This document shows positions 13,176 through 31,673 of a DNA stretch of 38,842 nt, in pieces. The position numbers and the translations under genes are program-made. The DNA comes from an uncultured SAR86 cluster bacterium (GTDB lineage: Bacteria; Pseudomonadota; Gammaproteobacteria; Magnimaribacterales; D2472). Numbering within the stretch: the first letter of the stretch is position 1; every line of letters begins with the position of its first letter. The stretch spans positions 1-38,842 of the forward strand of contig CABWYS010000007.1 in NCBI GenBank assembly GCA_902509555.1. Direction: 5' to 3'. Below the pieces are notes generated by a model that saw only the letters and a program-made list of their open reading frames with translations, made no database searches and was not told the origin of the DNA.

Positions 13176-14174
13176 ATGCTTAATAATAAAACTATCTTAA
13201 TTACTGGTGGTACAGGCTCTTTTGGGCACTCCTTCATTCCTTTAACACTAGAAAAATATAACCCCAAAAAGGTAATTATTTACTCTAGAGATGAAATGAA
13301 GCAATGGGAAATGGCTCAATTATTTGAGGGTGATGAAAGAGTTAGGTTTTTTATCGGAGATGTAAGGGATAAAGATAGGTTACATCGCGCCCTAGATGGG
13401 GTTGACTATGTAGTGCATGCAGCTGCAACGAAAATAGTTCCAACTGCTGAATACAATCCATTTGAATGTATCAAGACAAATATTAATGGCGCAATGAATA
13501 TTATTGACGTTGCAATAGATTCTGAGGTTCAAGGCGTCGTTGCACTATCTACTGATAAAGCAAGCAGCCCCATTAATTTATATGGTGCAACAAAACTAGC
13601 TTCAGATAAGCTATTTATAGCTGGCAATTCTTACTCAGGAATAAAACCTACAAAGTTTTCTGTCGTTCGATATGGTAATGTTATGGGCTCAAGAGGATCA
13701 ATCATCCCCTTTTTTAATTCAATTAAACATGAGGGAATTCTCCCCATTACTGATACCCGCATGACACGATTTATGATTTCTTTGGAACAAGCAGTAGACT
13801 TGGTTTGGCATGCTTTTGATGACATGCTTGGGGGAGAGATCTATGTAAAGAAGATTCCATCAATGAATATCGTAGATCTTGCTAACACCCTTGCACCGGA
13901 TGCTAAACATGAGATTGTTGGAATTAGGCCTGGTGAAAAACTGCATGAGCAAATGATCGGCATTGAGGATGCAATCTCAACTTACTCTTATGAAGATTAT
14001 TATAAAATTCTCCCATCAATTAACGATTGGGCGCACGATCCTAATAGAATAAAAAATGGTGTTAAGGTTGCGGAAGATTTTGTTTATGAAAGTAGCTCTA
14101 ATGTTGAATGGATGTCGGAAGATGAGCTGAAAGTTTGGCTCAAAAACAATGAGTCAAAAATAGGAAAAATATAG
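13176..14174 (+). CDS. pseB: UDP-N-acetylglucosamine 4,6-dehydratase (PseB type)
   Basis: Extended SDR that removes water from UDP-GlcNAc and inverts C5, giving UDP-4-keto-6-deoxy-AltNAc, the entry to pseudaminic-type sugars. Residues 11-17 GGTGSFG bind NADP; STDKASSPINLYGATK (125-140) holds Asp127-Lys128 and Tyr136-x3-Lys140, the PseB arrangement. VRYGNVMGSRGSIIPFF and GIRPGEKLHEQMI complete the signature. Its 332 residues are normal. First gene of the locus, 57 bases after tRNA-Cys, in a very AT-rich leader. The usual partner PseC aminotransferase does not follow. The retaining-type dehydratases of the bacillosamine and legionaminic routes are longer membrane proteins, so PseB is favoured. 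Confidence 0.88.
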   Translation: MLNNKTILITGGTGSFGHSFIPLTLEKYNPKKVIIYSRDEMKQWEMAQLFEGDERVRFFIGDVRDKDRLHRALDGVDYVVHAAATKIVPTAEYNPFECIKTNINGAMNIIDVAIDSEVQGVVALSTDKASSPINLYGATKLASDKLFIAGNSYSGIKPTKFSVVRYGNVMGSRGSIIPFFNSIKHEGILPITDTRMTRFMISLEQAVDLVWHAFDDMLGGEIYVKKIPSMNIVDLANTLAPDAKHEIVGIRPGEKLHEQMIGIEDAISTYSYEDYYKILPSINDWAHDPNRIKNGVKVAEDFVYESSSNVEWMSEDELKVWLKNNESKIGKI

Positions 14175-14224
14175 AGTATTTGAATTTACCGCATGTTCCA
14201 TTTATACATTCGTTTCAAAAATTT

Positions 14225-15088
14225 ATGAAATTAGCTCTTGGAACTGCACAATTTGGCATGCAATATGGCATTGTAAATAAAAATACCCCAATTGAATGGA
14301 ATGAGGCTGACTCCATCCTTGGTTTAGCAAAAGAATTTTCTATAGACACTATTGATACAGCATCAATCTATGGAAATAGTGAAAAAATTCTTGGAAAAGC
14401 TAATCTTAATTCCTTTAAGGTCAATACGAAATTAAAGGCTATACCCAATTTTCGTATAGATATATTCTCGTGGGTAGAAAAAGAGATTCAATGCTCATTG
14501 AATAACCTTAATATTGACAGAATTGATACTCTTTTTATTCATAATCCAATAGATTTACAAGGATCAAATGGCTTTAAACTCTTTGAGGCTGTCAATTTAG
14601 CCAAAGAAAAAGGTTTGTTAAAAAAAATTGGTATATCGATTTATTCTCCAGAAGAGTTAAGCTTTCTATTTGATAACTTCTATTTTGATGTTGTTCAAGC
14701 TCCATTCAATCTTGTTGATCGAAGAATCCTTCAGTCAGGATGGTTGAAAAAATTATCAGCAATGAATGTAATAGTTCATACTAGATCAGCATTTTTACAG
14801 GGCTTATTGCTCACACCATTTTCAGAACTTGATAAAAAATTTAAAAAAGTAGTGGTATTTTCTGCATGGAGAGATTGGCTTCAAAAAAACAATTTAAATC
14901 CACTGGATGTTGCTTTAGCTTATCCCTTGTCAATTAATGAAATTGACAGAGTAATTGTTGGAGTTGATAGCCTTTTACAATTTAAGGAAATACTTGATGC
15001 CACAACATTTATCTCAGACTACACATTTCCGAAAATTGAATCTTCAGATATAAAATTATTGCATCCAGGAAATTGGCAGAGTTTATGA
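14225..15088 (+). CDS. Aldo/keto reductase
   Basis: NAD(P)H-dependent reductase of the AKR superfamily, 287 residues from ATG 14225. The catalytic tetrad is present: Asp44 and Tyr49 (DTIDTASIYG), Lys69 (VNTKLK) and His106 (LFIHNP). The frame opens at TTG 14180, but ATG 14225 (MKLALGTAQFG) fits the family N-terminus. It lies between pseB and a cytidylyltransferase fusion and shares a 4-base ATGA overlap with the latter, so it probably acts on a nucleotide-sugar or keto-sugar intermediate. The substrate cannot be read from sequence. Confidence 0.85.
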   Translation: MKLALGTAQFGMQYGIVNKNTPIEWNEADSILGLAKEFSIDTIDTASIYGNSEKILGKANLNSFKVNTKLKAIPNFRIDIFSWVEKEIQCSLNNLNIDRIDTLFIHNPIDLQGSNGFKLFEAVNLAKEKGLLKKIGISIYSPEELSFLFDNFYFDVVQAPFNLVDRRILQSGWLKKLSAMNVIVHTRSAFLQGLLLTPFSELDKKFKKVVVFSAWRDWLQKNNLNPLDVALAYPLSINEIDRVIVGVDSLLQFKEILDATTFISDYTFPKIESSDIKLLHPGNWQSL

Positions 15089-17127
15089 ATGTTTTAGCAG
15101 TTATCCAGGCAAGATTAGGCTCCACAAGATTACCTAATAAGGTAATGAAAAGAATAGAAGATCAAACTCTTATTCAGCTACTCGTTTCAAGATTATCAAA
15201 ATCCAGGCATATTGATCAAATTATTGTTGCAACTTCAAAGGATGCTGAGAACTTGCCTCTTGTTGATCATGTTAAAAAGATGGGAATAGAATGTTTTCAG
15301 GGCAGTGAAGAGGATGTGTTGATGAGATATTTTAGTGCGGCTAAAAAATACAATGCAGATACAATTGTTAGGATAACAGGTGACTGCCCATTGATAGATG
15401 CTTCTTTGGTAGATAAAGTTATTTCTAAATTTAATTCTTCTGATTGTGATTATGTGTCAAATAATTACCCTCCAACATATCCAGATGGATTAGATGTTGA
15501 GGTTTTCTCATTATCATCTCTTGATATTGCAAATCGTTTTGCCATCTCAATATCAGATAGAGAACATGTAACACCATATATTAGAAATTCAGGCAAATTT
15601 AAAGTCGATGTTGTATCAAATTCAGAAGATTTTTCTGACAGAAGGTGGACTGTAGATGAGCAAGAAGATTTCTTAGTTATTCAAAAGATATACAAACACT
15701 TTTTTCCAAATATTCACTTTAGCTGGAAAGATATTATGAAGCTGGAAGAAGAAAAACCTGATATATTTATTGACAATAAATTCATTAAAAGAAATGAAGG
15801 CATGCATATGGGTAAAGGGCAAAAACTTTGGAAAAGAGCAAAAAAGATTATTCCTGGAGGTAATATGCTCTTGTCCAAGAGATCTGAGCAATACTTGCCA
15901 GAGTATTGGCCCTCATATTTTAAAGAAGCTTATGGCTGTAAGTTAAAGGACTTAGATGGAAATGAGTATATTGATATGTCAATTATGGGCATTGGAACCA
16001 ATATTCTTGGATATGGGAATAAATTAGTTGATGAAGAGGTAACCAGGGTAGTTAAACAAGGAAACATGAGTTCTTTAAATTGTCCCGAAGAGGTTTATCT
16101 TGCTGAAACATTAATTGATCTTCATCCCTGGGCTGATATGGCCCGATTTGCGCGATCTGGTGGTGAGGCAAATGCTATAGCAATAAGAATTTCTCGTGCT
16201 GCTACAGGAAAAGATAATGTTGCAGTATGTGGATATCATGGATGGCATGATTGGTATTTATCTGTAAATCACAATACTCAAAATTCTGAAAATTCAAAAG
16301 GCCTTGACGAACATCTGCTACCAGGCTTATCTCCAACTGGAGTTCCTTCAAGCCTTAAAAATACTGTATTCCCATTTTCTTATAATGACTTTGAGCAGCT
16401 CTCCGATTTAGTTAAAAATTACAATATTGGTACCATTAAGATGGAGGTCATGAGAAACGAAGAGCCAAAAAATGATTTTCTTCATAAGGTAAGAAAACTA
16501 TCCTCTGATAATAATATAGTGCTTATATTTGATGAATGCACCTCAGGGTTTAGGGAAACTTTTGGCGGTCTCCATAAAAAATTTGGTGTTGAGCCTGATA
16601 TGGCTATGTTTGGTAAGGCGCTTGGTAATGGTTATGCAATTACTGCAACTATTGGGAGGAAAGAAATTATGGAAGCAGCTCAAAGTACTTTCATAAGCAG
16701 TACTTTTTGGACAGAGCGAATAGGGCCTGTTGCAGCCTTAAAAACTCTAGAGGTTATGAATAATTTAAAGTCCTGGGAAACCATTACAAGCAAAGGAATA
16801 TTTATAAAAAATTCTTGGGATGAGCTTGCAACTAAACATAATTTAAAAATTAACCACTTTGGAATTCCGGCTTTAGCTGGTTTTAATATTGATAGTAAAT
16901 TTTCACTGGAATATAAAACTTTTATTACTCAGGAAATGTTAAAAAAAGGATATTTGGCCTCTAATGTAGTTTACTCATGCACAGAGCACACTAAAGAAGT
17001 TGTTCAAAATTATCTTGAAGAGCTAGATAAAATTTTTTCTAAAATAAAATCTTGCGAAGAAAAAGATTCTATTGGTTCTCTTCTTGATGGAGAGGTTTGC
17101 CACTCTGGATTCGGAAGGTTGAATTAG
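15085..17127 (+). CDS. Fusion: SpsF-type cytidylyltransferase + class III (GSA-like) aminotransferase
   Basis: One 680-residue frame with two enzymes. Residues 1-235: nucleotidyltransferase related to SpsF/PseF/NeuA, with IQARLGSTRLPNKV (7-20), RITGDCPLID (96-105) and SDREHVTPYI (158-167); this type activates nonulosonic acids with CMP. Residues 243-680: PLP-dependent aminotransferase like glutamate-1-semialdehyde aminomutase, with DECTSGFR (Asp483) and the Schiff-base lysine in MFGKALGNGY (Lys511). Start ATG 15085 overlaps the preceding stop. An AAGG at 15797-15800 sits 7 bases before an in-frame ATG at 15808, just at the domain junction, so a free aminotransferase may also be made. It probably aminates a keto-sugar; the sugar is unknown. 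Confidence 0.85.
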   Translation: MNVLAVIQARLGSTRLPNKVMKRIEDQTLIQLLVSRLSKSRHIDQIIVATSKDAENLPLVDHVKKMGIECFQGSEEDVLMRYFSAAKKYNADTIVRITGDCPLIDASLVDKVISKFNSSDCDYVSNNYPPTYPDGLDVEVFSLSSLDIANRFAISISDREHVTPYIRNSGKFKVDVVSNSEDFSDRRWTVDEQEDFLVIQKIYKHFFPNIHFSWKDIMKLEEEKPDIFIDNKFIKRNEGMHMGKGQKLWKRAKKIIPGGNMLLSKRSEQYLPEYWPSYFKEAYGCKLKDLDGNEYIDMSIMGIGTNILGYGNKLVDEEVTRVVKQGNMSSLNCPEEVYLAETLIDLHPWADMARFARSGGEANAIAIRISRAATGKDNVAVCGYHGWHDWYLSVNHNTQNSENSKGLDEHLLPGLSPTGVPSSLKNTVFPFSYNDFEQLSDLVKNYNIGTIKMEVMRNEEPKNDFLHKVRKLSSDNNIVLIFDECTSGFRETFGGLHKKFGVEPDMAMFGKALGNGYAITATIGRKEIMEAAQSTFISSTFWTERIGPVAALKTLEVMNNLKSWETITSKGIFIKNSWDELATKHNLKINHFGIPALAGFNIDSKFSLEYKTFITQEMLKKGYLASNVVYSCTEHTKEVVQNYLEELDKIFSKIKSCEEKDSIGSLLDGEVCHSGFGRLN

Positions 17128-17137
17128 AGAACGAGAA

Positions 17138-17992: not shown

Positions 17993-18033
17993 TTATTCCT
18001 TCTTTTTTAATGCGGTAATATACTACGAGTAAT

Positions 18034-19344
18034 ATGGATATAACAATTATTGGAACTGGATATGTAGGGCTAGTTGCAGGGGCCTGTTTTTCGAAAGCAG
18101 GCCATAATGTTATTTCCTTAGATACAAATGTTGAGAGAATCAATGGCTTAAATAACCTGGAATTACCTATTTTTGAGCCAGGCCTTAAAAACATTATTAC
18201 CAAATCATTTAAGGAGAAAAGATTAAAGTTTTCAACTTCTTACAAGCAAGCCTGCGTTAACAAAGTTATTTTTATATGTGTTGATACTCCAAGCAAGAAA
18301 AATGGTGAGGCTGATCTTACAAATCTTAAAAAGGTTTTAAATTCCCTAGCTGAATTTATTCAGCCGGGTGCTATGTTAATAACAAAATCTACTGTTCCAG
18401 TAGGTACAGGTAAATTCATAAAATCTTTTTTTGATAATAAGTTTGCGAATAGAGAAATGAATCTTCGGTTCTGTTCAAATCCTGAATTTCTTAGGGAGGG
18501 CTCTGCTGTAAGAGATTTTTTAAAGCCTGAAAGAATAATTATAGGATGTGATTCCCCGCAAGGACGAAAAATTATGGAAGAAATTTATCACCCTATTGAT
18601 AAAAAAATATTTAATAAAATGATTTATATGTCTGTCTCCTCCGCAGAACTATCCAAGTATGCGGCTAATGCTTTTCTAGCCACAAAAATTAGTTTTGTTA
18701 ATGAAATAGCAAAACTTTCAGACAAAGTAGGCGCCAATATTCATGAAATTAAATCTGCACTTGGATCAGATTCTAGAATAGGTGATCAATTCCTAAATGC
18801 TGGATTAGGTTTTGGTGGATCATGTTTTCCAAAGGATTTAAACGCACTTTATTACTTAGAAAAAAAATTTAAGTTAGAACCAAGTATTGTCAAGACAGTT
18901 TTAGCTTTAAACAATTCACAAATAGATTATTTCTATAATAAGATAAAGAAGCATTATGGACGCTCTTTGAAAAATAAAACTATATGTTTTTGGGGGCTAT
19001 CATTCAAACCAAATACTGATGATGTCCGTGATTCTATGGCTATCAGCCTGATTAACAAATTATCGAAAGAAGTTAAATATCTTAGGCTTTATGATCCAGT
19101 AGCAAATAAAAATGCAAAAATGGTATTAAGTTCATTGAGTGATATAGAGTTTTTTGAAAATATGTATGACGCATTACATAGTTCAGATTGCTTAATCATT
19201 GCCACTGAATGGGAGCTTTTCTCCAAGCCAGATATCAAAAAATTAAGCTTTCTGAAAGACAAACTAATATTTGATGGCAGAAATATTTTAGATGCCGATC
19301 AGCTCAATAAATATAATATAATCTATAATGGTATTGGCTGTTAA
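18034..19344 (+). CDS. ugd: UDP-glucose 6-dehydrogenase
   Basis: Oxidises UDP-glucose to UDP-glucuronate with two NAD. The 436 residues contain the N-terminal GTGYVG (7-12), STVPVGTG, SNPEFLREGSA, the central helix KYAANAFLATKISFVNE, and the catalytic cysteine Cys264 in GFGGSCFPKD. FWGLSFKPNTDDVRDSMA is the typical start of the C-terminal domain. The GFGGSCFPKD form points to UDP-glucose rather than UDP-GlcNAc substrates. A gap of 41 bases with TAATATACT-like sequence precedes it, so a promoter close to the ATG is possible but not convincing. Confidence 0.92.
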   Translation: MDITIIGTGYVGLVAGACFSKAGHNVISLDTNVERINGLNNLELPIFEPGLKNIITKSFKEKRLKFSTSYKQACVNKVIFICVDTPSKKNGEADLTNLKKVLNSLAEFIQPGAMLITKSTVPVGTGKFIKSFFDNKFANREMNLRFCSNPEFLREGSAVRDFLKPERIIIGCDSPQGRKIMEEIYHPIDKKIFNKMIYMSVSSAELSKYAANAFLATKISFVNEIAKLSDKVGANIHEIKSALGSDSRIGDQFLNAGLGFGGSCFPKDLNALYYLEKKFKLEPSIVKTVLALNNSQIDYFYNKIKKHYGRSLKNKTICFWGLSFKPNTDDVRDSMAISLINKLSKEVKYLRLYDPVANKNAKMVLSSLSDIEFFENMYDALHSSDCLIIATEWELFSKPDIKKLSFLKDKLIFDGRNILDADQLNKYNIIYNGIGC

Positions 19345-19364
19345 TACGCTCTAACTGTTATAAT
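19334..19364 (+). promoter_or_regulatory. Strong candidate promoter for tviB-tviC-wzx
   Basis: TGTTATAAT (19356-19364) is a perfect extended -10. TTGGCT at 19334-19339 is a partial -35 with 19-base spacing. It starts inside the ugd end and predicts a leader of about 65 bases before tviB, so module B probably has its own transcript. Confidence 0.6.
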
Positions 19365-19434
19365 GCCTTCAAAATTTATACCCCGAAGTCCTTATTAACT
19401 CAAAAATACCCTAAATATATACAAAAGCTTTTGA

Positions 19435-20715
19435 ATGTCAGAAATTAATTTATCAAACCTAAATATAGCAATTATAGGCCTAGGCTATGTGGGTTTGCCA
19501 CTAGCTTTGGAATTTTCTAAGAAATATTCAGTAGTCGGTTTTGACATTAACGAGAATAGAATAAATGAACTGTCAGATGGTTTAGATGAAACAAATGAGG
19601 CAGATAAGAATGAGTTATTATCATCTGATATATTATTTTCATCAGATATATTAGATATCAAAAGTGCGACCTGCTATATAATTACTGTTCCAACACCAAT
19701 TGACAAAAATAAAGATCCTGATCTTCAGCCACTAGTTGCTGCGAGTGAGTTGGTAGGAAAAGTATTAAAGCAAGATGATATAGTAATATATGAATCGACT
19801 GTATATCCTGGAGCAACAGAGGAAGTATGTGTTCCAGTCCTGGCTGAAAAGTCATCTTTGAAATACAACGAGTCTTTTTTTGTGGGCTATTCACCAGAAA
19901 GAATCAACCCTGGTGATAAAGAGCACCGGCTGCAAGATATTACCAAGGTAACATCAGGATCAAATCCCAGAATAGCTTCATGGGTTGATGCTCTGTATAG
20001 TTCCATTATTTTAGCCGGAACTCATAAAGCATCTTCAATAAAAGTAGCCGAAGCAGCTAAAGTTATTGAAAACACTCAGAGAGATCTCAACATAGCTCTA
20101 ATTAATGAGCTAGCAATTATTTTTGATAGGCTCAACATAAACACTGTAGATGTTTTAGCAGCAGCAGGTACCAAATGGAACTTTTTACCTTTCAGTCCAG
20201 GTCTAGTTGGAGGCCACTGCATAGGAGTTGATCCATACTACCTTACTCACAAAGCTCAAGCTATTGGTTATGAACCTGAAGTAATTTTAGCTGGCAGAAG
20301 ATTAAATGATAGGATGGCTGACTTTATTGCATCTAAATCAATCAATTTTATTACTCAACAAGATATTGATATAACTCAGGCAAAAATTCTTGTCATGGGG
20401 CTCACATTCAAAGAAAACTGCCCAGATATAAGGAATACAAAAGTTATAGATGTTATATCTGCATTGAAAAAACAAAAAACATCTGTAGATATATATGATC
20501 CATGGGTTAACAAAGAAATAGCAAAAAAAGAATATAACCTTGATATGTTAGATGACATAAAGCTCAATAGCTATAATATGATAATTGTAGCAGTTGGCCA
20601 TGATCAATTCCGTGAATTAGGAATAGAGCAAATACGAAAATTTGGAAAGAAGGAATGCGCGATTTATGATTTAAAAAATATCTTTCCTAGTGATCAAGCA
20701 GATATGCAACTATAA
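19435..20715 (+). CDS. tviB: UDP-N-acetylglucosamine 6-dehydrogenase (TviB/WbpO/WbpA group)
   Basis: Oxidises the C6 of UDP-GlcNAc (or UDP-GalNAc) to the uronic acid. The 426 residues contain GLGYVGLPLA (15-24), YESTVYPGATEEVC, GYSPERINPGD, KVIENTQRDLNIALINE and the catalytic Cys262 in GLVGGHCIGVDPYY, which is the form of the UDP-HexNAc dehydrogenases as opposed to GFGGSCFPKD of Ugd. GLTFKENCPDIRNTKVIDV opens the C-terminal domain. It is followed 4 bases later by a TviC-like epimerase, the classical tviBC or wbpOP pairing. Confidence 0.9.
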   Translation: MSEINLSNLNIAIIGLGYVGLPLALEFSKKYSVVGFDINENRINELSDGLDETNEADKNELLSSDILFSSDILDIKSATCYIITVPTPIDKNKDPDLQPLVAASELVGKVLKQDDIVIYESTVYPGATEEVCVPVLAEKSSLKYNESFFVGYSPERINPGDKEHRLQDITKVTSGSNPRIASWVDALYSSIILAGTHKASSIKVAEAAKVIENTQRDLNIALINELAIIFDRLNINTVDVLAAAGTKWNFLPFSPGLVGGHCIGVDPYYLTHKAQAIGYEPEVILAGRRLNDRMADFIASKSINFITQQDIDITQAKILVMGLTFKENCPDIRNTKVIDVISALKKQKTSVDIYDPWVNKEIAKKEYNLDMLDDIKLNSYNMIIVAVGHDQFRELGIEQIRKFGKKECAIYDLKNIFPSDQADMQL

Positions 20716-20719
20716 TTTT

Positions 20720-21757
20720 ATGAATCTTAACGCCTATCAGGAAGCTAAAGAATACCTCCTATCCAATCAATTCAAATGGATGATTTCAGGGGTTGGTGGT
20801 TTTATAGGGAGTAATTTACTTGAGCAGTTATTAAAACTTAATCAAATCGTTGTTGGCCTTGATAATTTTTCAACTGGTTTCAAAGAGAATATTCAGGCTA
20901 CAAAAGAAAATGTTACTTCTTCTCAGTGGAAAAGGTTTTCATTTATAGAGGGGGATATTTTGGATGAGCTGTTATGTAAGACTTCCTGTAAAGACATTGA
21001 CTTTGTTTTGCATCAAGCTGCTCTTGGCTCAGTTCCAAGGAGCATATCAGATCCCATAAATTCGAATAGCAGCAATATAACAGGTTTTTTAAATATGCTG
21101 GTTGCAGCTAAAGACATAGGTGTAAAAAGGTTCATTTATGCAGCCAGTAGTTCAACATATGGTGATCATCCTGACCTACCCAAAAAAGAGAGCGTTATAG
21201 GGAAACCACTAAGTCCATATGCAGTAACTAAGCTTGTAAATGAAATATATGCAGGAGTTTTCAAACATACCTATAATTTAGATTCCATCGGTTTGCGGTA
21301 CTTTAATGTTTTTGGGAGAAGGCAAACAGTTAACAGCTCATACGCTGCTGTAATACCTAAATGGGTTGGAGCATTGATAGGTGGAGAAGACGTATTTATT
21401 AATGGGGATGGAACCACTAGTAGAGATTTCACTTTTATTGATAATGTTGTTCAGGCAAATATTTTAGCTGCTACTACCCAAAACGCTGATGCTGTAAATC
21501 AAATCTATAATATAGCTGCAGGCGAGCAAACAACACTGATTAAGCTTTTTGAATTGATATCTCAAAACCTTCAAATGACTGATTCCACAATATTATTGAG
21601 GGAGCCAATATTTAGAGACTTTCGTGAGGGAGATGTAAAACATTCATTAGCAGATATTTCTAAGGCAAGGCTTGCTCTCGGCTATAATCCAACTCATAAC
21701 GTTGAAAAAGGTATTAAGGAAGCTGTTGCTTGGTACATAGAAAACCTTAATGCCTAA
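20720..21757 (+). CDS. tviC: UDP-GlcNAc(A) 4-epimerase (TviC/WbpP group)
   Basis: Extended SDR that interconverts gluco and galacto forms of UDP-HexNAc or UDP-HexNAcA. ATG 20720 gives 345 residues (the frame reaches back to 20690 inside tviB, but this ATG fits the family). It has GVGGFIGSN (24-32), SSSTYGDHPDLPK (143-155), Tyr167-x3-Lys171 in SPYAVTK, and LRYFNVFGRRQ, a very characteristic WbpP/TviC sequence. With tviB it should produce UDP-GalNAcA. It overlaps the next gene by 8 bases. Confidence 0.9.
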   Translation: MNLNAYQEAKEYLLSNQFKWMISGVGGFIGSNLLEQLLKLNQIVVGLDNFSTGFKENIQATKENVTSSQWKRFSFIEGDILDELLCKTSCKDIDFVLHQAALGSVPRSISDPINSNSSNITGFLNMLVAAKDIGVKRFIYAASSSTYGDHPDLPKKESVIGKPLSPYAVTKLVNEIYAGVFKHTYNLDSIGLRYFNVFGRRQTVNSSYAAVIPKWVGALIGGEDVFINGDGTTSRDFTFIDNVVQANILAATTQNADAVNQIYNIAAGEQTTLIKLFELISQNLQMTDSTILLREPIFRDFREGDVKHSLADISKARLALGYNPTHNVEKGIKEAVAWYIENLNA

Positions 21758-23012
21758 AAATAATTTTTTAAAAAATGCTTCGACTTATTTTGGAGCTAAT
21801 ATTTTAAATGGACTGATACCTTTTTTACTTTTGCCTGTACTCACAAGATTTCTTTCTGTAGAGAGTTATGGTGAGGTTGCAATATTTCAGACTTTATACA
21901 TGGCATTAAGTGCTTTTGTTGGCATTACTATGGCAGGGGCATCAGATAGAAAATTTTTTGATGGCGAGGCGTCAAATAAATTAGGCAATTTTATTGGGGC
22001 ATGTTTTCAAATTTGTATTTTGCTTACTGCATTAACCACGGCTATTTTTTTAATATATAGAAATCAAGCATCTGCTCTCCTTGGCGTCTCCTTGGATTAT
22101 ATTTTTTATGCAATATTTGTATCTGTTTCACTTGTTGTTATTCAAATTAGACTTGGGCAATGGCAAGTGAGAGAGCGAGTGTTTGCATATTCTTTTATGC
22201 AAATTTCTCAATCTTCATTAGTTGTGATTTTTGCAGTAATTATGGTGGCATTTTTAAACTTTGATGCATTGGGAAGAATTTATGCTCAGGTAATTATTTG
22301 TGGGTTCTTGGCAGCAATTTCAATTATTCTTTTAGTAAAAGATAACCTGTTAAATTTTTTTTCTTGGAATCCGCAGCATATAAGAGAAGCACTAAGTTTT
22401 GGAATTCCATTAATGCCTCACATAGTAGGGGTTTTTTTATTAACAATGATAGACCGTTTCATCATTGCCGGTGAGCTCGGAATTGGTAAGTCTGGAATTT
22501 ATATGCTGGCAGCTCAACTCGCTACTTTAGTTGTTTTAGTGCATGAGGCGATCAACAAAGCATTTTGGCCATGGCTTTTTGAAAAACTAAAACTAGATCA
22601 AATAGATGATAAGATTCTTATTGTAAAATATACATATATTTGGTTCTTTGTAATAATTCTTACTGCTCCACTTGCCTTTTGGCTGGGTCCAATTTTAGTA
22701 AGAATAGTGGCTGGTCCTGATTATGCTGAGGCTGGTATAGTCTTTGGCTGGCTGGCTCTTGGCCACTCAATTGGTGGTATGTATTCAATGCTAAATCCAT
22801 ATATATATTATTCAAAAAAGACGTCTATACTCTCCTGGGTAACAATTGTCTCCGGATGCTTGAACGTAGGCTTATTGCTTATTTTTATTAAACTATATGG
22901 TATGCAAGGAGCCGCAATAGCATTTGCCTTATCAATGTTGGTAAGATTCTTGCTGACATGGATAGCAGCTCAATCTAAGCATCCTATGCCTTGGCTATAT
23001 TTCTTAAAATAG
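21750..23012 (+). CDS. wzx: Polysaccharide flippase (Wzx-like, MOP superfamily)
   Basis: Inner-membrane protein of 420 residues, built almost entirely of hydrophobic segments (about 12 predictable helices). The N-terminus NASTYFGANILNGLIPFLLLPVLTRFLS is typical of polysaccharide-transport and Wzx flippases, which move undecaprenyl-linked repeat units to the periplasm. It is translationally coupled to tviC (8-base overlap). Its stop codon sits in the hairpin shared with the opposite acyltransferase gene. Confidence 0.85.
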   Translation: MPKNNFLKNASTYFGANILNGLIPFLLLPVLTRFLSVESYGEVAIFQTLYMALSAFVGITMAGASDRKFFDGEASNKLGNFIGACFQICILLTALTTAIFLIYRNQASALLGVSLDYIFYAIFVSVSLVVIQIRLGQWQVRERVFAYSFMQISQSSLVVIFAVIMVAFLNFDALGRIYAQVIICGFLAAISIILLVKDNLLNFFSWNPQHIREALSFGIPLMPHIVGVFLLTMIDRFIIAGELGIGKSGIYMLAAQLATLVVLVHEAINKAFWPWLFEKLKLDQIDDKILIVKYTYIWFFVIILTAPLAFWLGPILVRIVAGPDYAEAGIVFGWLALGHSIGGMYSMLNPYIYYSKKTSILSWVTIVSGCLNVGLLLIFIKLYGMQGAAIAFALSMLVRFLLTWIAAQSKHPMPWLYFLK

Positions 23013-23033
23013 CTAACTAGGATTAGTCAGCTA
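23010..23033. terminator. Probable bidirectional terminator between convergent genes
   Basis: TAGCTAACTA and TAGTCAGCTA pair around GGAT: nine base pairs with one A-C mismatch. On the + strand it is followed by TCTAATATTTTCTTT and on the - strand by TTTTAAGAAA. It covers the stop codon of wzx and the 3' end of the acyltransferase gene, which are only 14 bases apart. No other terminator serves this convergent junction. Confidence 0.6.
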
Positions 23034-25051
23034 TCTAATATTTTCTTTATGCATGATTCTTTAGCATGAATACCATCAAAAAACTCAAATTTTTTGCATG
23101 AATTAAATCGAGGATCAAAAGATCCGACAATTCTTATGCTTAACAGATCTGCTAATTCTTTAAAATCTTTTTCAATTTGAAGTAATTCTGGTTTTTCTTT
23201 AAGAAATCTTTTATATAGATCTGGGTGATATGGAGTTAGCATCAAAATTATCTCAGTAGATTTGCTATGAAATGTTATTAGATTCTCTAGCATTTGAAGC
23301 ATCATGGGTGATCGCTCGTAATTATCAATTGAGTGTGTTAGATATGCATCAAAATCTTTAGAAATTTCATCTGTAGATCGGTTTTGGAATGATAAGTTAT
23401 ATACTCTTGTCCCATCTTTTTTTGTAATATCTTTGAAAGATCTTGAGGCAGATGTTGATGAGCCAAAGTTTCTTAGTAAAAAGAAGGGTTTTAATGCTTT
23501 ACCATTTTCTTTTAATGACTCTGCTTCAAGATTTCTTTTTATATCTATGGTCTCTAATAGATTCGAATCGCCTGATGATATCTTATTAATTTCTTCATCA
23601 TACTCAGCCTTCAGTGATTTCCATTGAGTGCGATTAGAATTGCGATTGATGAGCCAAGGATCTAAACCAACCATAATTGTTTGAGGGTTGAAATGTGTTG
23701 ATGCTAATCCTGTAATTGCTACGCTGTCTTGAAGGGAGGCATTGCTAACGCTTAAATTAAGAGTTTCAAGATTGGTGAGACTCTTGCCCACTTGCATCAT
23801 TCTTGATGAACCAATTATTATGATATCAGGATTCATGTCTTCCAATACTATTCTATTCTTAATAAATAATCTTTCATCTATATCTGCGCTAACAATCTGC
23901 TTACTCCTCATAAGATCATCTGCCATTCTGTATTCAATATTATTAATATTTTTTGCAGCACTTACTCCAAAAATTATAAAAAATGTACTACCGATAATGG
24001 AAATAGACCAAATTGCCTTGGAAGAAAATTCAGATCTTCTTCTAAAAGGGTTTTCTATAAATCTCCAAGTCAAGTATGCCAAGCAAAACGTTAAGACAAT
24101 TAGTAAAAGATTTATACTAAAGCTTAATTCTTGAAAATTCACATTTCTAGTAAAAGCAAATAATGGTACATGCCATAAATAAGCGCTGTAACTTATTAGT
24201 CCAATACCTACAAATAGTTTGTTTGAAAGAAATTTTGAGATTGAGTTCTTCTCACGAGCAAACAAAATAATTAATAGCGTTCCAATTGTTGGAACTAATG
24301 CATGTAATCCAGGAAATGGAATAGTTTTATCAAATACAACTACTGAAAATGCAATTAAAAATAACCCAAAAGAACCAAGAAAATTTTGAAGGAATTTACT
24401 GGGCATCTTAGGATTTGTCCTGAGGTAGAATGTAGCGAAAACTCCAAGAAGCAACTCCCATCCTCTAGTTGGAAGAAGATAAAATGTTGCTGAAGGATGA
24501 TTATGAGACCCCCAGTAAGACAAAATTAAGCTCAAGCAAAAAATAAGAACAAGAGTTAGGATAAGAGCTCTTTTTCCAAGACCCCAAGTTAAAAAGATAA
24601 ATAATGGAAAAAGAAGATAGTATTGCTCCTCAACAGCAAGGCTCCAAGTATGAAGCAACGGTTTCAGTTCAGCAGCCTCAGAAAAATAACCCTCCATCCC
24701 TAATAAAAAATATATGTTGGAACCAAATATTGATACAGCCGCAAGACTTTCAAAATAATTTATTAGATCACTAGGCACCAAAACCAATAATGCGATTGGG
24801 AGTGTCATTAACATTATAAAAAATAAGCTTGGCAATAATCGCCTGGCCCTTCGTTCATAAAAATTTAGTAAACTAAAATTTCCAGTATCAATTTCTTTAA
24901 AAATTAATCCTGATATTAAATATCCACTGATAACAAAAAATACATCTACCCCGACAAAGCCGCCACTAAAACTATTGAATCCAGCATGAAAAAATATTAC
25001 AGGTATTACGGCCAGCGCTCTCAAGCCATCTATTTCTGATCTATAAAACAT
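23027..25051 (-). CDS. Acyltransferase-3 (OafA/YrhL type) with C-terminal SGNH-like domain
   Basis: Inner-membrane enzyme that O-acylates surface glycans. Residues 1-365: about ten membrane helices with the family motifs, Arg11-x10-His22 (RALAVIPVIFFH), GGFVGVDVFFVISGYLI (30-46) and LLHTWSLAVEEQYYLLFP (132-149). Residues 400-674: a periplasmic SGNH-hydrolase-like domain with GSSR (414-417) in place of the usual GDSH and a terminal DGIH (659-662) that supplies the Asp-His pair. Fused acyltransferase-SGNH proteins are known O-antigen acetylases. It is the only minus-strand gene in the window and splits the locus, so it may have been inserted and is expressed separately. Confidence 0.88.
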   Translation of the reverse strand: MFYRSEIDGLRALAVIPVIFFHAGFNSFSGGFVGVDVFFVISGYLISGLIFKEIDTGNFSLLNFYERRARRLLPSLFFIMLMTLPIALLVLVPSDLINYFESLAAVSIFGSNIYFLLGMEGYFSEAAELKPLLHTWSLAVEEQYYLLFPLFIFLTWGLGKRALILTLVLIFCLSLILSYWGSHNHPSATFYLLPTRGWELLLGVFATFYLRTNPKMPSKFLQNFLGSFGLFLIAFSVVVFDKTIPFPGLHALVPTIGTLLIILFAREKNSISKFLSNKLFVGIGLISYSAYLWHVPLFAFTRNVNFQELSFSINLLLIVLTFCLAYLTWRFIENPFRRRSEFSSKAIWSISIIGSTFFIIFGVSAAKNINNIEYRMADDLMRSKQIVSADIDERLFIKNRIVLEDMNPDIIIIGSSRMMQVGKSLTNLETLNLSVSNASLQDSVAITGLASTHFNPQTIMVGLDPWLINRNSNRTQWKSLKAEYDEEINKISSGDSNLLETIDIKRNLEAESLKENGKALKPFFLLRNFGSSTSASRSFKDITKKDGTRVYNLSFQNRSTDEISKDFDAYLTHSIDNYERSPMMLQMLENLITFHSKSTEIILMLTPYHPDLYKRFLKEKPELLQIEKDFKELADLLSIRIVGSFDPRFNSCKKFEFFDGIHAKESCIKKILDS

Positions 25052-25204
25052 AAGTAAACATTATTTATTAGATGTAATTCAATGTTAACAACAAAAATTA
25101 TTTTGAAATAGGTAACTTATCATGAAATATAAAAAACAATTTTAATTTATAAGCTATGATAGCAAGTAAATTTAAGTATTATGGAATCAAAATATCTCAA
25201 GTTA

Positions 25205-25210
25205 TATAAT
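25205..25210 (+). promoter_or_regulatory. Candidate -10 element for the neuB operon
   Basis: TATAAT at 25205-25210 lies 30 bases before the neuB ATG, with no good -35. AGAGG at 25231-25235 is a good Shine-Dalgarno 5 bases before ATG. The 189-base gap 25052-25240 separates divergent genes, so it must hold promoters for both directions; nothing else is recognised in it. Confidence 0.4.
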
Positions 25211-25240
25211 TAATTTATAAATCATTTACAAGAGGCAATC

Positions 25241-26317
25241 ATGAAATATAACTCATATTTAGAAATAGAGGGAAAGAAAATTGGCTCGGGCTATCCTACA
25301 TACTTTATTGCAGATATTGCAGCTAATCATGATGGTGATCTAAATAAAGCAATTGATTTAATACATCTTTGCGCAGAGGCAGGAAGTGATGCTGCCAAAT
25401 TTCAGCATTTCACAGCTGCAACTATAGTAAGTGATGTTGGATTTAAATCACTTGGCAATCAGCAGTCGCATCAGGCGTCATGGAAAAAATCAGTATTTGA
25501 AGTTTATGATGACGCTTCCATTAATCGAGATTGGACACAAACTCTCAGCAAAGAATGCAAAAAAGCTGGAATAAGCTTTTTTACAAGCCCATATTCAAAG
25601 GAGCTCGTCGATGAGGTGGATACATTTATGCCAGCTTATAAAATAGGTTCTGGTGATATTTCATGGAAAGAAATAATTCGATACATAGCATCAAAGAATA
25701 AGCCATATTTTTTGGCATCAGGTGCATCTTCAATGGATGACGTGGTTGAGGCTGTTGAAGCTGCTTGTGAGATTAATCCTCAATTCTCGTTGATGCAATG
25801 CAATACTAATTATACTGGGTCTTTAGAAAATTTTAGACATATTCAACTGAATGTATTAAATAGTTTCAAACAAATGTATCCCGGCATGGTTCTTGGCCTG
25901 TCAGATCATACTCCTGGGCATACAACTGTCTTAGGAGCAGTCGCTCTTGGAGCTTCAGCTATAGAGAAGCACTTTACAAGTAATACTAATCAGGATGGCC
26001 CTGATCATGGCTTTTCAATGGACCCAGTAACTTGGAAAGAAATGGTAGATAGAACTAGAGAACTTGAGTTAAGTCTTGGGAATGGCGTTAAGCGAGTTGA
26101 AGAAAATGAACTGGAAACAGCTGTTCTTCAAAGAAGATCTATTCGTGCAAAAATTGATTTATCAATAGGGGAAAAGATAACAAATGAAAATACAGAGGCG
26201 CTGAGACCTTGCCCAAAGGATGCACTAAAGCCAAATGAGCTAGAAAACATTTTAGGAAAAAAAGTTTCCATTGAAATCAAAGCAGGGGAGCATATAAAGT
26301 GGAAAGATCTCGAGTAG
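25241..26317 (+). CDS. neuB: NeuB-family nonulosonic acid synthase
   Basis: Condenses PEP with a six-carbon amino sugar to a nine-carbon alpha-keto acid (sialic, legionaminic or pseudaminic type). The 358 residues begin with the TIM barrel: YFIADIAANHDGDLNKAIDLI, AKFQHF, FFTSPYS, YKIGSGDI, LSDHTPGH and GASAIEKHFT are all family landmarks. A C-terminal SAF (antifreeze-like) domain covers about 290-358, beginning RRSIRAKIDLSIGEKIT. The subfamily (NeuB, LegI or PseI) cannot be set by eye; with a PseB-type dehydratase in the locus, a 2,4-diacetamido sugar is plausible. It overlaps the following GT2 gene by 19 bases. Confidence 0.88.
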   Translation: MKYNSYLEIEGKKIGSGYPTYFIADIAANHDGDLNKAIDLIHLCAEAGSDAAKFQHFTAATIVSDVGFKSLGNQQSHQASWKKSVFEVYDDASINRDWTQTLSKECKKAGISFFTSPYSKELVDEVDTFMPAYKIGSGDISWKEIIRYIASKNKPYFLASGASSMDDVVEAVEAACEINPQFSLMQCNTNYTGSLENFRHIQLNVLNSFKQMYPGMVLGLSDHTPGHTTVLGAVALGASAIEKHFTSNTNQDGPDHGFSMDPVTWKEMVDRTRELELSLGNGVKRVEENELETAVLQRRSIRAKIDLSIGEKITNENTEALRPCPKDALKPNELENILGKKVSIEIKAGEHIKWKDLE

Positions 26318-26937: not shown

Positions 26938-26943
26938 GGTAAT

Positions 26944-27678
26944 ATGAGTATCATAGCAACAATTGAAGCCAGGATGACTTCCTCGAGACTCCCTGGAAAG
27001 CCTTTGCTTTTAGCTGAAGGCATTTCTATGCTTGAGCACTTAGTGAGGAGGCTGAGAACTTGCTCATCATTAGACAAAATTATTTTAGCCACCACCACCA
27101 ATGATGCAGATGATATTCTGGTGGAACATGCTCAAAACATAGGCATTGATTTCTTTCGTGGTAGTGAAGAAAATGTTATGCAAAGAGTTTTGGATGCTGC
27201 TATATTTTTTAACGCTGAAATAATTGTAGAAATAACAGGCGATTGTCCAATCATCGATCCTCAGCTTATAGAACAGGCTATTGCAATTTTTCAGAACAAT
27301 GATGTTGACTATGTTAGCAATGGTAATATAAGGAGCTACCCTGATGGTATGGATGTCCAAGTATTTCGTAAAGATGTCTTAGCTAAGTCTGCATCCATGA
27401 CCAAAGATATGCTTGACAGAGAGCATGTCACTTTACATATAAGGAATAATGCAGATATTTTTTCAAGAATTAACATCCTGTCTCCTCCTGAATTATACTG
27501 GCCAGAATTGGGATTAACGCTAGATGAGGAAGCCGATTATAAGCTCCTAAAAGAGATCATTTCTTATTTTGAAAAAGATAATCCTATTTTTTCTTGCGGC
27601 GAGGTTATAGATTTTCTTAGAGCAAATAAAGAGTTACTTGAAATAAATGCATCTGTAATTAGAAAAGGCGATACATAG
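26944..27678 (+). CDS. SpsF-type cytidylyltransferase (CMP-nonulosonate synthetase-like)
   Basis: Stand-alone nucleotidyltransferase of 244 residues: IEARMTSSRLPGKPLL at the N-terminus, ITGDCPIIDPQLI, YVSNGNIRSYPDGMDVQVF, and DREHVTLHIR. It is clearly homologous to the first domain of the fusion at 15085, with which it shares the same series of motifs. Genes of this group sit beside NeuB-type synthases in sps and pse loci and activate the nonulosonic acid with CTP; given its position in the neuB operon, this one is the better candidate for that step. Confidence 0.85.
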   Translation: MSIIATIEARMTSSRLPGKPLLLAEGISMLEHLVRRLRTCSSLDKIILATTTNDADDILVEHAQNIGIDFFRGSEENVMQRVLDAAIFFNAEIIVEITGDCPIIDPQLIEQAIAIFQNNDVDYVSNGNIRSYPDGMDVQVFRKDVLAKSASMTKDMLDREHVTLHIRNNADIFSRINILSPPELYWPELGLTLDEEADYKLLKEIISYFEKDNPIFSCGEVIDFLRANKELLEINASVIRKGDT

Positions 27679-27682
27679 AACA

Positions 27683-28570
27683 ATGAATAAAGTAGCCGTA
27701 GTATGTCACGATGCCGGCGGTGCTGAAATAATAAGTAGTTGGCTTAGGAATAATGATATTCAATTTTCTTGTTACGTTGAGGGCCCAGCAAAAAATATTT
27801 TTATCAAGAAGTTTAAAAGTTATAGCGAAGGCAATCTTCTAAAAGTTATTTCAGATTCTGAATGGCTATTGACTGGAACAAGCTGGCAATCTGATATAGA
27901 AAATAAAGCAATCCAAATCGCTAGACAACAAAATAAAAAATCTATTTCATTTTTGGATCATTGGGTAAGCTATAAGGAGAGGTTTATATATAAAAATGAT
28001 TTTATCTATCCTGATGAAATTTGGGTTGGCGATATATATGCAAAAGAGATTGCAGAAAGAGTATTTTATAATATTTCTGTTAAACAGAAAACTAATGAAT
28101 ACTTTGTTGACATAATAAACAAGCTTAAATTGCTTAAATCTCCTATTAAGAAACCCTATCAAACAGCTCTTTATGTGTGTGAGCCAATTAGCGAACCAGC
28201 CAAAATTCAATTCGGGGATGAGAACTTTTTTAATTACAACGAAAAAGAAGCATTAAAATTTTTCTTAAAAAACTTAGATTTATTTAATATTAAAAAAATT
28301 ATGTTAAGACCTCATCCTTCAGAGTCTTTGGATAAATATACTTGGGTAAATGACTTTACCTCGGTTCCAATTGAGATTTCTAAATCACGCGATCTATTGG
28401 AGGATATAAATTTAGCTAATTTAGTAGTAGGATGCGAATCAATGGCAATGGTTATAGCTTTAATGGCAGATAAGAGAGTAGTAAGCAGCATTCCTCCAAT
28501 GGGAAGAAAATGTATTTTGCCTCATTCTCAAATTGAGTTTCTTAGTTCAATGGAGTGCAATAATTTATAA
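27683..28570 (+). CDS. Unrecognised protein in the neuB operon, possibly GT-B-like
   Basis: A 295-residue soluble protein that I cannot assign to a family with certainty. The start VAVVCHDAGGAEIISSWL looks like a Rossmann strand followed by a glycine turn. The C-terminal half has MLRPHPSESLDKY and NLVVGCESMAMVIALMADKRVVS, a pattern seen in surface-glycan glycosyltransferases with GT-B folds (an R-P-H-P motif and then a glycine/serine/glutamate loop). It is 4 bases after the cytidylyltransferase and overlaps the Gfo/Idh gene (TAATG). It occupies the place a PseG/SpsG-type sugar hydrolase would have, but it lacks the recognisable PseG start. Confidence 0.6.
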   Translation: MNKVAVVCHDAGGAEIISSWLRNNDIQFSCYVEGPAKNIFIKKFKSYSEGNLLKVISDSEWLLTGTSWQSDIENKAIQIARQQNKKSISFLDHWVSYKERFIYKNDFIYPDEIWVGDIYAKEIAERVFYNISVKQKTNEYFVDIINKLKLLKSPIKKPYQTALYVCEPISEPAKIQFGDENFFNYNEKEALKFFLKNLDLFNIKKIMLRPHPSESLDKYTWVNDFTSVPIEISKSRDLLEDINLANLVVGCESMAMVIALMADKRVVSSIPPMGRKCILPHSQIEFLSSMECNNL

Positions 28571-29535
28571 TGGTTAGAGACTGCATTTTAATTGGGCTTG
28601 GTCAAATTGGTATGGGTTATGATCTGGAGCTCGAAGGTGAATTTATTCTGACACATGCTAAAGCAATCTCCCAGCATCAAAAATTTAATTTAGTTGCAGG
28701 AGTAGACCCTTCAGAAAAGCTTAGAAAGAAATTCTCTGCGAAGTATAAAGTTCCTGCCCTAAAGACCATTAAAGAAGCTTTCATCTCTAATGATGCTTCA
28801 GTAATAATTATTGCTACACCAAGCAATACCCATGGAAAAATTTTAGATATTGTACTGAAATACCAAAATCCCGAATTAATTTTATGTGAAAAACCATTAG
28901 ATTATGATCTAGATGAAGCAAATAAAATATTAAAAAAATGTCATCAAAGAAATATTTTGCTTTTTGTTAATTATATGCGTAGAAGTGACATTGGTGCATT
29001 GAAAGTAAAGAGACTTATTAATGAATCAATAATTGAAACTCCTCTCAAAGGTTTTGTGTGGTACACAAAAGGATTGATGAATAATGGAAGTCACTTTCTC
29101 AATCTTTTGGAATACTGGCTCGGACCTATTAATAAAATGAATGTTTTATCTGAAGGTCATTTATGGAATCAAGCTGATCAAGAATATGATTTTCTTGCAA
29201 GATTCGACTTGGGAGAAGTTATTTTTTGTGCCTGTTCTGAACAGTCGGCTACATATAATTCATTAGAACTTATTGGACCATCTGGAAGATTATCTTATAG
29301 CAATGGAGGCGAGCAAATCTCTTGGCATCCCATCGTCCCTGATCCAGTTCTAAAAGATGAATTCAGGCTATCTACTGAGCCAACAATTATTCCAAGTAGC
29401 ATGAATCAATATCAATATAATGTTTATCAAGAAATTGCTAATGCACTTGATGGAATAGATTATAATTTGAGCTCTGGCAGAGATGCATTATCTACGCTAA
29501 AACACATTCATTCATTAGGAGAGCATGATGAGTAA
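28570..29535 (+). CDS. Gfo/Idh/MocA-family oxidoreductase
   Basis: NAD(P)-dependent sugar dehydrogenase type, 321 residues. The Rossmann start reads CILIGLGQIGMGYD, followed by IIIATPSNTHG and the signature Glu107-Lys108-Pro109 in ILCEKPLDYDL; the lysine is the usual catalytic residue. A second conserved block is GLMNNGSHFLNLLEYWLG. It is flanked by overlapping genes, so it is cotranscribed with the neuB group. It probably oxidises or reduces a nucleotide-sugar or nonulosonate intermediate and may work with the DegT aminotransferase that follows. Confidence 0.85.
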   Translation: MVRDCILIGLGQIGMGYDLELEGEFILTHAKAISQHQKFNLVAGVDPSEKLRKKFSAKYKVPALKTIKEAFISNDASVIIIATPSNTHGKILDIVLKYQNPELILCEKPLDYDLDEANKILKKCHQRNILLFVNYMRRSDIGALKVKRLINESIIETPLKGFVWYTKGLMNNGSHFLNLLEYWLGPINKMNVLSEGHLWNQADQEYDFLARFDLGEVIFCACSEQSATYNSLELIGPSGRLSYSNGGEQISWHPIVPDPVLKDEFRLSTEPTIIPSSMNQYQYNVYQEIANALDGIDYNLSSGRDALSTLKHIHSLGEHDE

Positions 29536-30805
29536 TAAATTAGCAATTTTTGGTGGCTTGAAAACTATAAATTATGAATTTAAAAAGTATAACTCTATAG
29601 GTATTGAGGAGCTTGAAGCTGCATCAAAAGTTATTGAAACCGGAGTTCTATCACAATTTTTAGGATCTCATAGTGATGACTTTTACGGCGGCCCAAAAGT
29701 CAAAGAGTTTGAAAGAGCTTGTGAAAAATATTTTGGTGTTAAGCATGCCATTACAGTAAATTCGTGGACATCTGGATTAATAGCAGCTGTAGGGGCTCTA
29801 GATATCGAGCCAGGAGATGAGGTAATTGTATCGCCGTGGACAATGTGCGCTTCTGCAACGGCCATACTTCACTGGAATGCGATTCCAGTTTTTGCTGATA
29901 TTAATCCAGAAACTTTCAATATAGATCCAGAGTCTGTTGAAAAAAATATATCTAAAAATACAAAGGCAATTTTAGCGATCGATATCTTTGGTAGGTCCGC
30001 TGACATAGAGTCCTTAAGTAAAATTGCAAAAAAATATAATCTTGAGATTATTTCTGATACAGCCCAATCTCCTGGAGCTAAGTACAAAGACAATTTTGCA
30101 GGAACATTAGCAAGTATTGGCGGTTATAGCTTAAATTATCATAAACATATCCATACAGGTGAGGGCGGTATTTTAGTAACTAATAACGATATGCTAGCTA
30201 GAAGAATGCATTTAATTCGCAATCATGCAGAGGCTGCTGTTGAGGGCATGGGAGTCACAAATCTTTCAAATATGGTCGGATATAATTTTAGGCTTGGGGA
30301 AGTAGAATGTGCTATGGGTATTGAGCAGCTCAAGAAGCTTGAAAATTTCGTTTCTTCAAGGCAGAGTGCAGCTCATAAAATTATTAATGGAATAAAACAT
30401 CTTAAAGGTTTGCATGTTCCTGAGGTTAGAGATGACTGCTCAAATGTTTTTTATATTCTGCCACTAGTGCTTGATCTTGATGCGCTAGGGATTTCTAGAC
30501 AGGTTATTTTTGATGCTTTGACTGCTGAAGGTATTACTGGACTTATTCAAGGGTATGTTAATGTTCATATGCTTCCAATATTTCAAAAAAAAATTGCTTA
30601 CGGGTCTAATGGTTTTCCTTGGACAGAGAATTTTTGTAGAAAAGACATCAGCTATGAAAAGGGCATATGTCCAATTGCAGAAAATTTACATGAAAATACT
30701 TTTTTAGGTTATGAAATGTGTCTGCATGATTTAACAAATCAAGATATCTCACTAATTATTGAATCATTTCAAAAGGTATGGAGTAGTCTAGAGTATCTTA
30801 AATAG
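29528..30805 (+). CDS. DegT/DnrJ/EryC1-family PLP aminotransferase
   Basis: Sugar aminotransferase of 425 residues. The PLP lysine is in YSLNYHKHIHTGEGG (Lys206), and ISDTAQSPGA holds the Asp177 that binds the PLP nitrogen. SPWTMCASATAILHWNAIPVFADI is the usual cofactor-binding region. Two ATGs are adjacent (29525 and 29528); AGGAG at 29517-29521 is 6 bases from the second, so that is chosen. This could serve as the PseC-like amination step, although it is far from pseB, or it may add an amino group to another keto-sugar made by the Gfo/Idh enzyme. Confidence 0.88.
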   Translation: MSNKLAIFGGLKTINYEFKKYNSIGIEELEAASKVIETGVLSQFLGSHSDDFYGGPKVKEFERACEKYFGVKHAITVNSWTSGLIAAVGALDIEPGDEVIVSPWTMCASATAILHWNAIPVFADINPETFNIDPESVEKNISKNTKAILAIDIFGRSADIESLSKIAKKYNLEIISDTAQSPGAKYKDNFAGTLASIGGYSLNYHKHIHTGEGGILVTNNDMLARRMHLIRNHAEAAVEGMGVTNLSNMVGYNFRLGEVECAMGIEQLKKLENFVSSRQSAAHKIINGIKHLKGLHVPEVRDDCSNVFYILPLVLDLDALGISRQVIFDALTAEGITGLIQGYVNVHMLPIFQKKIAYGSNGFPWTENFCRKDISYEKGICPIAENLHENTFLGYEMCLHDLTNQDISLIIESFQKVWSSLEYLK

Positions 30806-31670: not shown

Positions 31671-31673
31671 GAA

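Follow-up and report, generated by a model that had tools for sequence, protein, structure and literature searches.

The stretch of DNA analyzed here, 38,842 nucleotides from an uncultured SAR86 cluster bacterium (contig CABWYS010000007.1, positions 1–38,842; hereafter the window), carries a gene set that appears to specify a cytidine monophosphate (CMP)-activated nonulosonic acid (NulO). The window (G000:C7:1-38842) is part of a metagenome-assembled genome (MAG) of 1.05 Mb in 53 contigs that is 70% complete. The gene set lies in two groups on either side of an insert:

13176..14174, + strand: PseB, UDP-GlcNAc 4,6-dehydratase (5-inverting); TIGR03589 529.9 bits against a cut-off of 407.75
14180..15088, + strand: aldo/keto reductase (AKR); PF00248 94 bits
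15073..17127, + strand: fusion of an SpsF-type cytidylyltransferase (aa 9–227) with a class III aminotransferase, AT3 (aa 246–682); open reading frame (ORF) of 684 aa
17138..17992, + strand: RmlD-like short-chain dehydrogenase/reductase (SDR); PF04321 59 bits
18034..25051, no single strand: insert with UDP-Glc dehydrogenase-like, TviB-like, TviC-like and Wzx-like genes and an OafA-like acyltransferase (- strand)
25241..26317, + strand: NeuB-family synthase (NeuB+SAF); PF03102 218 bits
26299..26937, + strand: GT2, its start overlapping the end of neuB; PF00535 80.5 bits
26944..27678, + strand: second SpsF-type cytidylyltransferase; PF02348 105 bits
27683..28570, + strand: "unknown" protein, predicted GT-B fold with an invariant H211-P212 pair; structure model
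28570..29535, + strand: Gfo/Idh/MocA dehydrogenase; PF01408 50 bits
29525..30805, + strand: DegT aminotransferase (DegT2); PF01041 280 bits

All the enzymes named in the original prediction are present (PseB, AKR, RmlD-like SDR, NeuB, two SpsF proteins, Gfo/Idh, a class III aminotransferase, DegT and the unknown protein), but the first SpsF and the class III aminotransferase, listed there as separate genes, form a single fused ORF. This fusion is 59–64% identical to fusions in four other genomes (G162, G242, G043 and G016). The second SpsF, which has no PseF match at E ≤ 0.001, is 59–65% identical to genes of the related loci L099, L109 and L110.

The NeuB-family synthase scores below both equivalog cut-offs, with 249.9 bits against 399.65 for NnaB and 236.5 bits against 340.25 for PseI. 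Scanned one by one against NCBIfam, the 81 members of its clade give best E-values of 4.7e-85 (NnaB) and 4.7e-79 (PseI); estimating from the bit scores and E-values of the window protein, we reckon that no member reaches 399.65 or 340.25 bits, respectively. The clade is supported at 100/99 in a maximum-likelihood tree of 71 rows and at 100/100 in a second tree of 31 rows (30 of the 71 plus SpsE, 1vli), and a long-branched row, L062, joins it from outside in the first. Five PseI rows (PDB 8h2c and four that exceed the TIGR cut-off) and NmNeuB fall outside it, as does the legionaminic acid (Leg) synthase SpsE in the second tree, which holds no Campylobacter LegI. By sequence, the window NeuB belongs to a widespread clade distinct from the synthases of sialic, pseudaminic and legionaminic acid (SpsE for the last). 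This placement supports the earlier proposal of a CMP-activated acid that is not pseudaminic (Pse), legionaminic or sialic acid (Neu).

The gene neighborhood of this clade was followed in the best 80 of at least 548 pattern-matched NeuB relatives in GTDB genomes. These loci (L numbers) are the top matches of a single scan and are not independent of one another; presence counts come from six-frame hidden Markov model (HMM) searches of the 80 loci with thresholds of our choosing. The SDR is present in 74 of the 80, a count that replaces an ORF-based 66 of 79 in which SDRs of some contigs were missed, and in 71 its midpoint lies at most 1.3 kb upstream of the NeuB midpoint. Of the six loci lacking it, L094 and L164 start within its place or shortly ahead of it, L115 ends early, and L125, L135 and L161 are arranged otherwise. 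PseB is found in 66/80, a cytidylyltransferase in 64/80 and GT2 in 50/80, and GT2 immediately follows NeuB in 44 of 79. The remaining genes of the window occur in 23 (DegT2), 21 (Gfo), 19 (AT3), 17 (AKR) and 17 (GT-B protein) of the 80. PseG is found in two loci and PseC in one (L100, L154), and such loci hold a second NeuB-family gene.

Among the same loci, the order PseB-AKR-fusion-SDR-NeuB-GT2 is unbroken in L099, L110, L113, L126, L128 and L129, and recurs in L104, where the contig is cut before PseB and one gene stands between NeuB and GT2. In L099 and L110, SpsF, Gfo/Idh, DegT, GNAT and GT-B genes come next, with one or two other ORFs interspersed. The window has the L099/L110 gene set, split by the insert at 18034–25051 and without the GNAT, which is likewise missing from L122. 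A five-gene core of PseB, a PseF-type cytidylyltransferase, SDR, NeuB and GT2 is found in L087, L097, L117 and L156. Culturable hosts are among these relatives: L156 is from Shewanella canadensis, L129, with AKR and AT3, from Neptuniibacter caesariensis MED92, and L097 from Psychrobacter glacincola, whose genome additionally carries PseG and PseH over cut-off and may therefore make Pse as well. Since SDR and NeuB adjoin in relatives that carry both groups contiguously, the two groups of the window look like one operon split here by the insert, and two unlinked pathways are disfavored. The original prediction had also allowed for two different CMP-sugars; this second alternative is less likely, as L099 and L110 hold both gene groups in one contiguous operon, and it is the first, a CMP-activated acid other than Pse, Leg or Neu, that gains support. 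In relatives from the taxonomic order to which the window belongs, NeuB-like genes also occur in open frames of about 650–800 aa that are possible fusions (G280, G406, G377, G412 and G285).

The hydrolase and acetyltransferase of the canonical routes had gone unrecognized in the window, and the genome-wide search agrees. In G000, no match to PseG or NeuC was obtained at E ≤ 0.001, and neither PseC nor PseH has a match over its cut-off (the best PseH match, 28.2 against 93.1 bits, is on another contig), so that canonical PseG and PseH were not found elsewhere in the genome, which is weak evidence in a MAG that is 70% complete. A six-frame HMM search of the window found neither of two GNAT families that we built. 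For the LegB-type dehydratase (TIGR04180), the best among the matches listed in the window is the TviC-like protein at 138.6 against 475, with PseB at 56.6. Over the 24 host genomes with a clade NeuB, several of them incomplete, matches over cut-off number two for PseG, two for PseC, two for PseH and three for NeuC, which further backs an acid other than Pse, Leg or Neu; the pathway generally seems not to borrow these enzymes from elsewhere in the genome. Gene content and order indicate a conserved NulO pathway that fits none of the Neu, Leg and Pse routes.

The SDR scores 178.8 bits with the HMM of the NeuB-adjacent SDR family, whose members reach at least 143.8 bits and the next sequence 64.7. 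Its Y125 and K129 are conserved, and a PDB search returned a single match, a hypothetical RmlD (2ggs, 5.3e-6). The known task of RmlD-type SDRs is the reduction of a 4-keto-sugar ketone such as PseB would supply. An SDR of this type with a conserved Tyr/Lys pair would leave the hexose with a hydroxyl where Pse has an N-acetylamino group, and hence give a 7-hydroxy, 9-deoxy NulO. With moderate confidence, we favor a single, split CMP-NulO operon in which PseB and a 4-keto-reducing SDR replace PseC and PseH, and the product is a 7-hydroxy, 9-deoxy NulO of the fusaminic-acid kind; this core reading rests on gene content and order, from which we infer the chemistry.

In the proposed route, PseB would, as expected of its family, convert UDP-GlcNAc to UDP-4-keto-6-deoxy-L-arabino-HexNAc. 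The RmlD-like SDR would reduce the 4-ketone, in place of PseC and PseH, to a UDP-2-acetamido-2,6-dideoxy-hexose of the L-altrose kind, and a further enzyme would remove UDP. From the free sugar and phosphoenolpyruvate, the clade NeuB would form a 5-acetamido-3,5,9-trideoxy-nonulosonic acid with a C7 hydroxyl, of the fusaminic-acid kind, no stereochemistry being predicted. AKR would then oxidize, and the fused AT3 aminate, a carbon that is not C7 and is most likely C8; more tentatively, Gfo/Idh may oxidize a ring hydroxyl and DegT then aminate that further position, perhaps C4. SpsF would give the CMP-sugar, which the GT-B protein and GT2 would transfer into a surface glycan.

The same two early enzymes might instead supply a UDP-6-deoxy-HexNAc for direct incorporation into a polysaccharide, with the NeuB acid derived from another hexose and a shared glycan accounting for the proximity of the genes. 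We regard this as rather unlikely. In its favor, both 6-deoxy-L-AltNAc and fusaminic acid, which has a hydroxyl at C7, are reported from the O-antigen of F. nucleatum 25586 (PMC9912281, PMC5595891), and no hydrolase was found that would connect the PseB/SDR half to the NeuB half. Against this, the SDR adjoins NeuB upstream in 71 of the 80 loci, across many phyla, and the short core operons L156 and L117 contain no further sugar-making gene that we recognized.

A Pse-like, 7-amino acid, in which DegT or AT3 aminates the 4-keto sugar, an unrecognized hydrolase frees it and the SDR acts elsewhere, is improbable. DegT and class III aminotransferases are indeed present in the window, L051 and L087 carry a PseF over its cut-off, and the GT-B model resembles PseG (3hbm, 2.6e-6). 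However, of the 62 loci that contain both PseB and SDR, 26 show no DegT-, PseC- or AT3-like match at E ≤ 1e-3, some of those loci being short (this count supersedes 34 of 62 from a looser score threshold); AT3 and AKR adjoin PseC in Pse clusters; and the NeuB lies outside PseI.

Several observations weigh against the favored 7-hydroxy reading. The main gap is that no UDP-sugar hydrolase was found to free the hexose from UDP, which would leave the NeuB step without its substrate. The window SDR is divergent, at 178.8 bits where 73 of the 80 loci give at least 250 (one gives 248.5 and the other six less than 60), and it could act on another ketone. PseB is absent from 14 of the 80 loci, six with less than 4 kb upstream and eight with more than 5 kb on both sides, and L125, L135 and L161 have the same NeuB without the SDR. 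The cytidylyltransferase of L051 and L087, a PseF over cut-off (289.5 and 286.2 against 205.7), leans toward a Pse-like acid. The AKR/AT3 pair is not fixed: 5 of the 17 loci with AKR lack AT3, and 7 of the 19 with AT3 lack AKR. The link to the F. nucleatum and Tenacibaculum maritimum sugars is one of chemistry and not of genes, and the genome itself is only 70% complete.

AKR and AT3 occur together in 12 of the 80 loci (Fisher p 3e-6, with no correction for relatedness), and AKR residues D59, Y64, K84 and H121 are conserved in at least 90% of 16 sequences, the window included. The pair is also found with PseB, PseC, PseG and PseI, each over its cut-off, in L042, L044 and L053; with PseC, PseG and PseI in L043; and with PseB, PseC and PseG in L046 and L054. 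The L042 fusion is 64% identical to that of the window. AT3 as a substitute for PseC was rejected, because AT3 adjoins PseC in these Pse clusters. The occurrence of AKR/AT3 both with and without PseC points to a carbon other than C7, and the fusion of AT3 to a CMP-synthetase points to action on the nine-carbon acid. C8 is favored because an 8-amino NulO is known (PMC3210612). C8 is therefore the proposed site of amination by AKR and AT3, a position argued from gene company. In L100 and L127 a DegT takes the slot of AT3 and AKR is kept.

The original prediction noted that DegT lies 15 kb from pseB. DegT scores far below PseC (236.8 against 423.5) and in relatives belongs to a separate Gfo/Idh-DegT-GNAT-GT-B set; that it is a displaced PseC is rejected by that score and by its company with Gfo/Idh. 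Gfo/Idh and DegT2 are both present in 19 of the 80 loci; E107, K108 and P109 of Gfo/Idh are conserved in at least 90% of 18 sequences, and K207 of DegT in at least 90% of 23. A PDB search with Gfo/Idh gave weak matches (best 1.2e-8). Relatives often add a GNAT to this set, whereas the window has none. L044 holds PseC, AKR/AT3 and Gfo/DegT2/GNAT together, which suggests that the last set acts at a third amination position; that this is ring C4 is a guess. Whether all these parts combine as a fourth widespread NulO pathway, operating without a PseG- or NeuC-type hydrolase and equipped in SAR86 with two further oxidase-aminotransferase pairs (for C8 and for a ring carbon such as C4) that yield an undescribed tri-amino NulO, is doubtful, and we put it forward as a tentative possibility.

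The "unknown" protein (27683–28570) has no Pfam match, and a PDB sequence search gave nothing at E ≤ 1. Its model (pLDDT 92.2, pTM 0.86) predicts a GT-B fold. The best Foldseek matches include MurG (1.6e-7), TarL with CDP-ribitol (2.0e-6), a polysialyltransferase with CDP (2.2e-6) and PseG (3hbm), and VIA-align scores are tied between a 2-epimerase (Z 15.7), NeuC (15.6) and the polysialyltransferase (14.9). The His-Pro pair is invariant in 14 sequences of the family and resembles the HP motif of CMP-dependent sialyltransferases. All 17 loci that have the protein also have Gfo and DegT2. On the model, the protein is probably a glycosyltransferase, the proposed CMP-NulO transferase of the Gfo/DegT set, and a role as hydrolase is possible. 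GT2, with conserved D86, D88, G89, Q90 and H91, is a probable glycosyltransferase. It is improbable that the missing UDP-sugar hydrolase is GT2 or the GT-B protein. The position of GT2 directly after NeuB in 44 of 79 loci would suit that role, and the GT-B model resembles NeuC and PseG, which are both hydrolases on GT-B folds; yet neither candidate is present in L162 and L143, which carry PseB-SpsF-SDR-NeuB-GNAT; nothing in the genome of L162 passes the PseG or NeuC cut-off; and the GT-B protein travels with Gfo/DegT and not with the core.

The downstream side of NeuB varies among relatives. A GNAT directly follows NeuB instead of GT2 in ten loci (L136, L141, L143, L146, L147, L153, L157, L160, L162 and L169). 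In L115, L123, L130 and L142 NeuB is succeeded by another GT2 and then by a PIG-L de-N-acetylase (a family of four members, with the Pfam score taken in L142), and in L123 (scored) and L130 (alike in appearance) by a formyltransferase after PIG-L; such loci perhaps make an N-formyl NulO. L048, L049, L090, L125, L135 and L161 have NeuB, a PseB-like dehydratase (36–42% identity), a protein of 241–254 aa and SpsF or SpsF-AT3. No SDR of the NeuB-adjacent family was seen in these six loci, and this protein of L048 has no Pfam match.

The window gene set follows genes that we take, from their sequences, to be uvrC-like and pgsA-like, and a tRNA-Cys. In L087, from the same genus as the window, the core operon lies at the same uvrC-pgsA site, and three genomes of the family (window 10727–13118, L087 and L091) have differing polysaccharide gene sets after uvrC-pgsA. 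This site is likely a hot spot for the exchange of surface-sugar genes in the family. After the DegT gene, at 30882–32456, lie a PhyH-type dioxygenase and an FkbM methyltransferase that may decorate the same glycan. Promoter and terminator scans gave nothing useful.

With the CMP-pseudaminic acid pathway (PseB, PseC, PseH, PseG, PseI, PseF), the window shares a PseB over cut-off, NeuB-family condensation and CMP activation (by PseF in L051 and L087); unlike that pathway, it has no PseC, PseH or PseG over cut-off, a NeuB of another clade and an RmlD-like SDR. The legionaminic acid pathway of the Bacillus subtilis sps genes (SpsC, D, E, F, G and M) likewise uses an SpsF-type cytidylyltransferase and UDP-linked precursors but requires SpsC, SpsD and SpsG, and its SpsE lies outside the window NeuB clade (PMC7439481). 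A Pse cluster of Vibrio B9-25K2 encodes an SpsF-aldo/keto reductase fusion, and so also ties an SpsF-type domain to an AKR; as described in the portion available, it retains PseB, PseC, PseG and a PseH domain and names no class III aminotransferase (PMC7371886). Fusaminic acid of F. nucleatum 25586 is, like the product proposed here, a 7-hydroxy, 9-deoxy NulO, and its reported companion, 6-deoxy-L-AltNAc, is the intermediate that we predict. The 8-amino NulO from the O-antigen of Flexibacter (Tenacibaculum) maritimus has an amino group at C8, the proposed site of AKR and AT3, and differs in being a 5,7,8-triamino acid (PMC3210612). A 274-Da flagellin NulO of Shewanella oneidensis, with two nitrogens and one N-acetyl group, shares its formula with a 5-acetamido-8-amino-7-hydroxy acid; its authors interpret it as a mono-acetyl Pse and describe homologs of PseB and PseC in that species (PMC3765264). 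The titles and abstracts of the open-licence literature searched held no description of the pathway and no T. maritimum O-antigen gene table, and no chemical data from any host were found.

The NeuB type and its gene neighbors are the usual basis for assigning a NulO as Neu, Leg or Pse. The clade described here fits none of the three and has a nearly fixed SDR partner. It spans many phyla, with at least 80 genomes that include culturable strains; judging from the at least 548 pattern-matched relatives, it is probably present in several hundred genomes. If the proposed route is correct, it would yield a set of candidate genes for making 7-hydroxy NulOs (fusaminic acid, for example) and for aminating C8, two features that we found described as chemistry only. 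It also raises a question of enzymology, namely which enzyme frees the hexose from UDP. The product of this putative sialic-acid-like route can now be predicted, and the prediction can be tested in culturable relatives.

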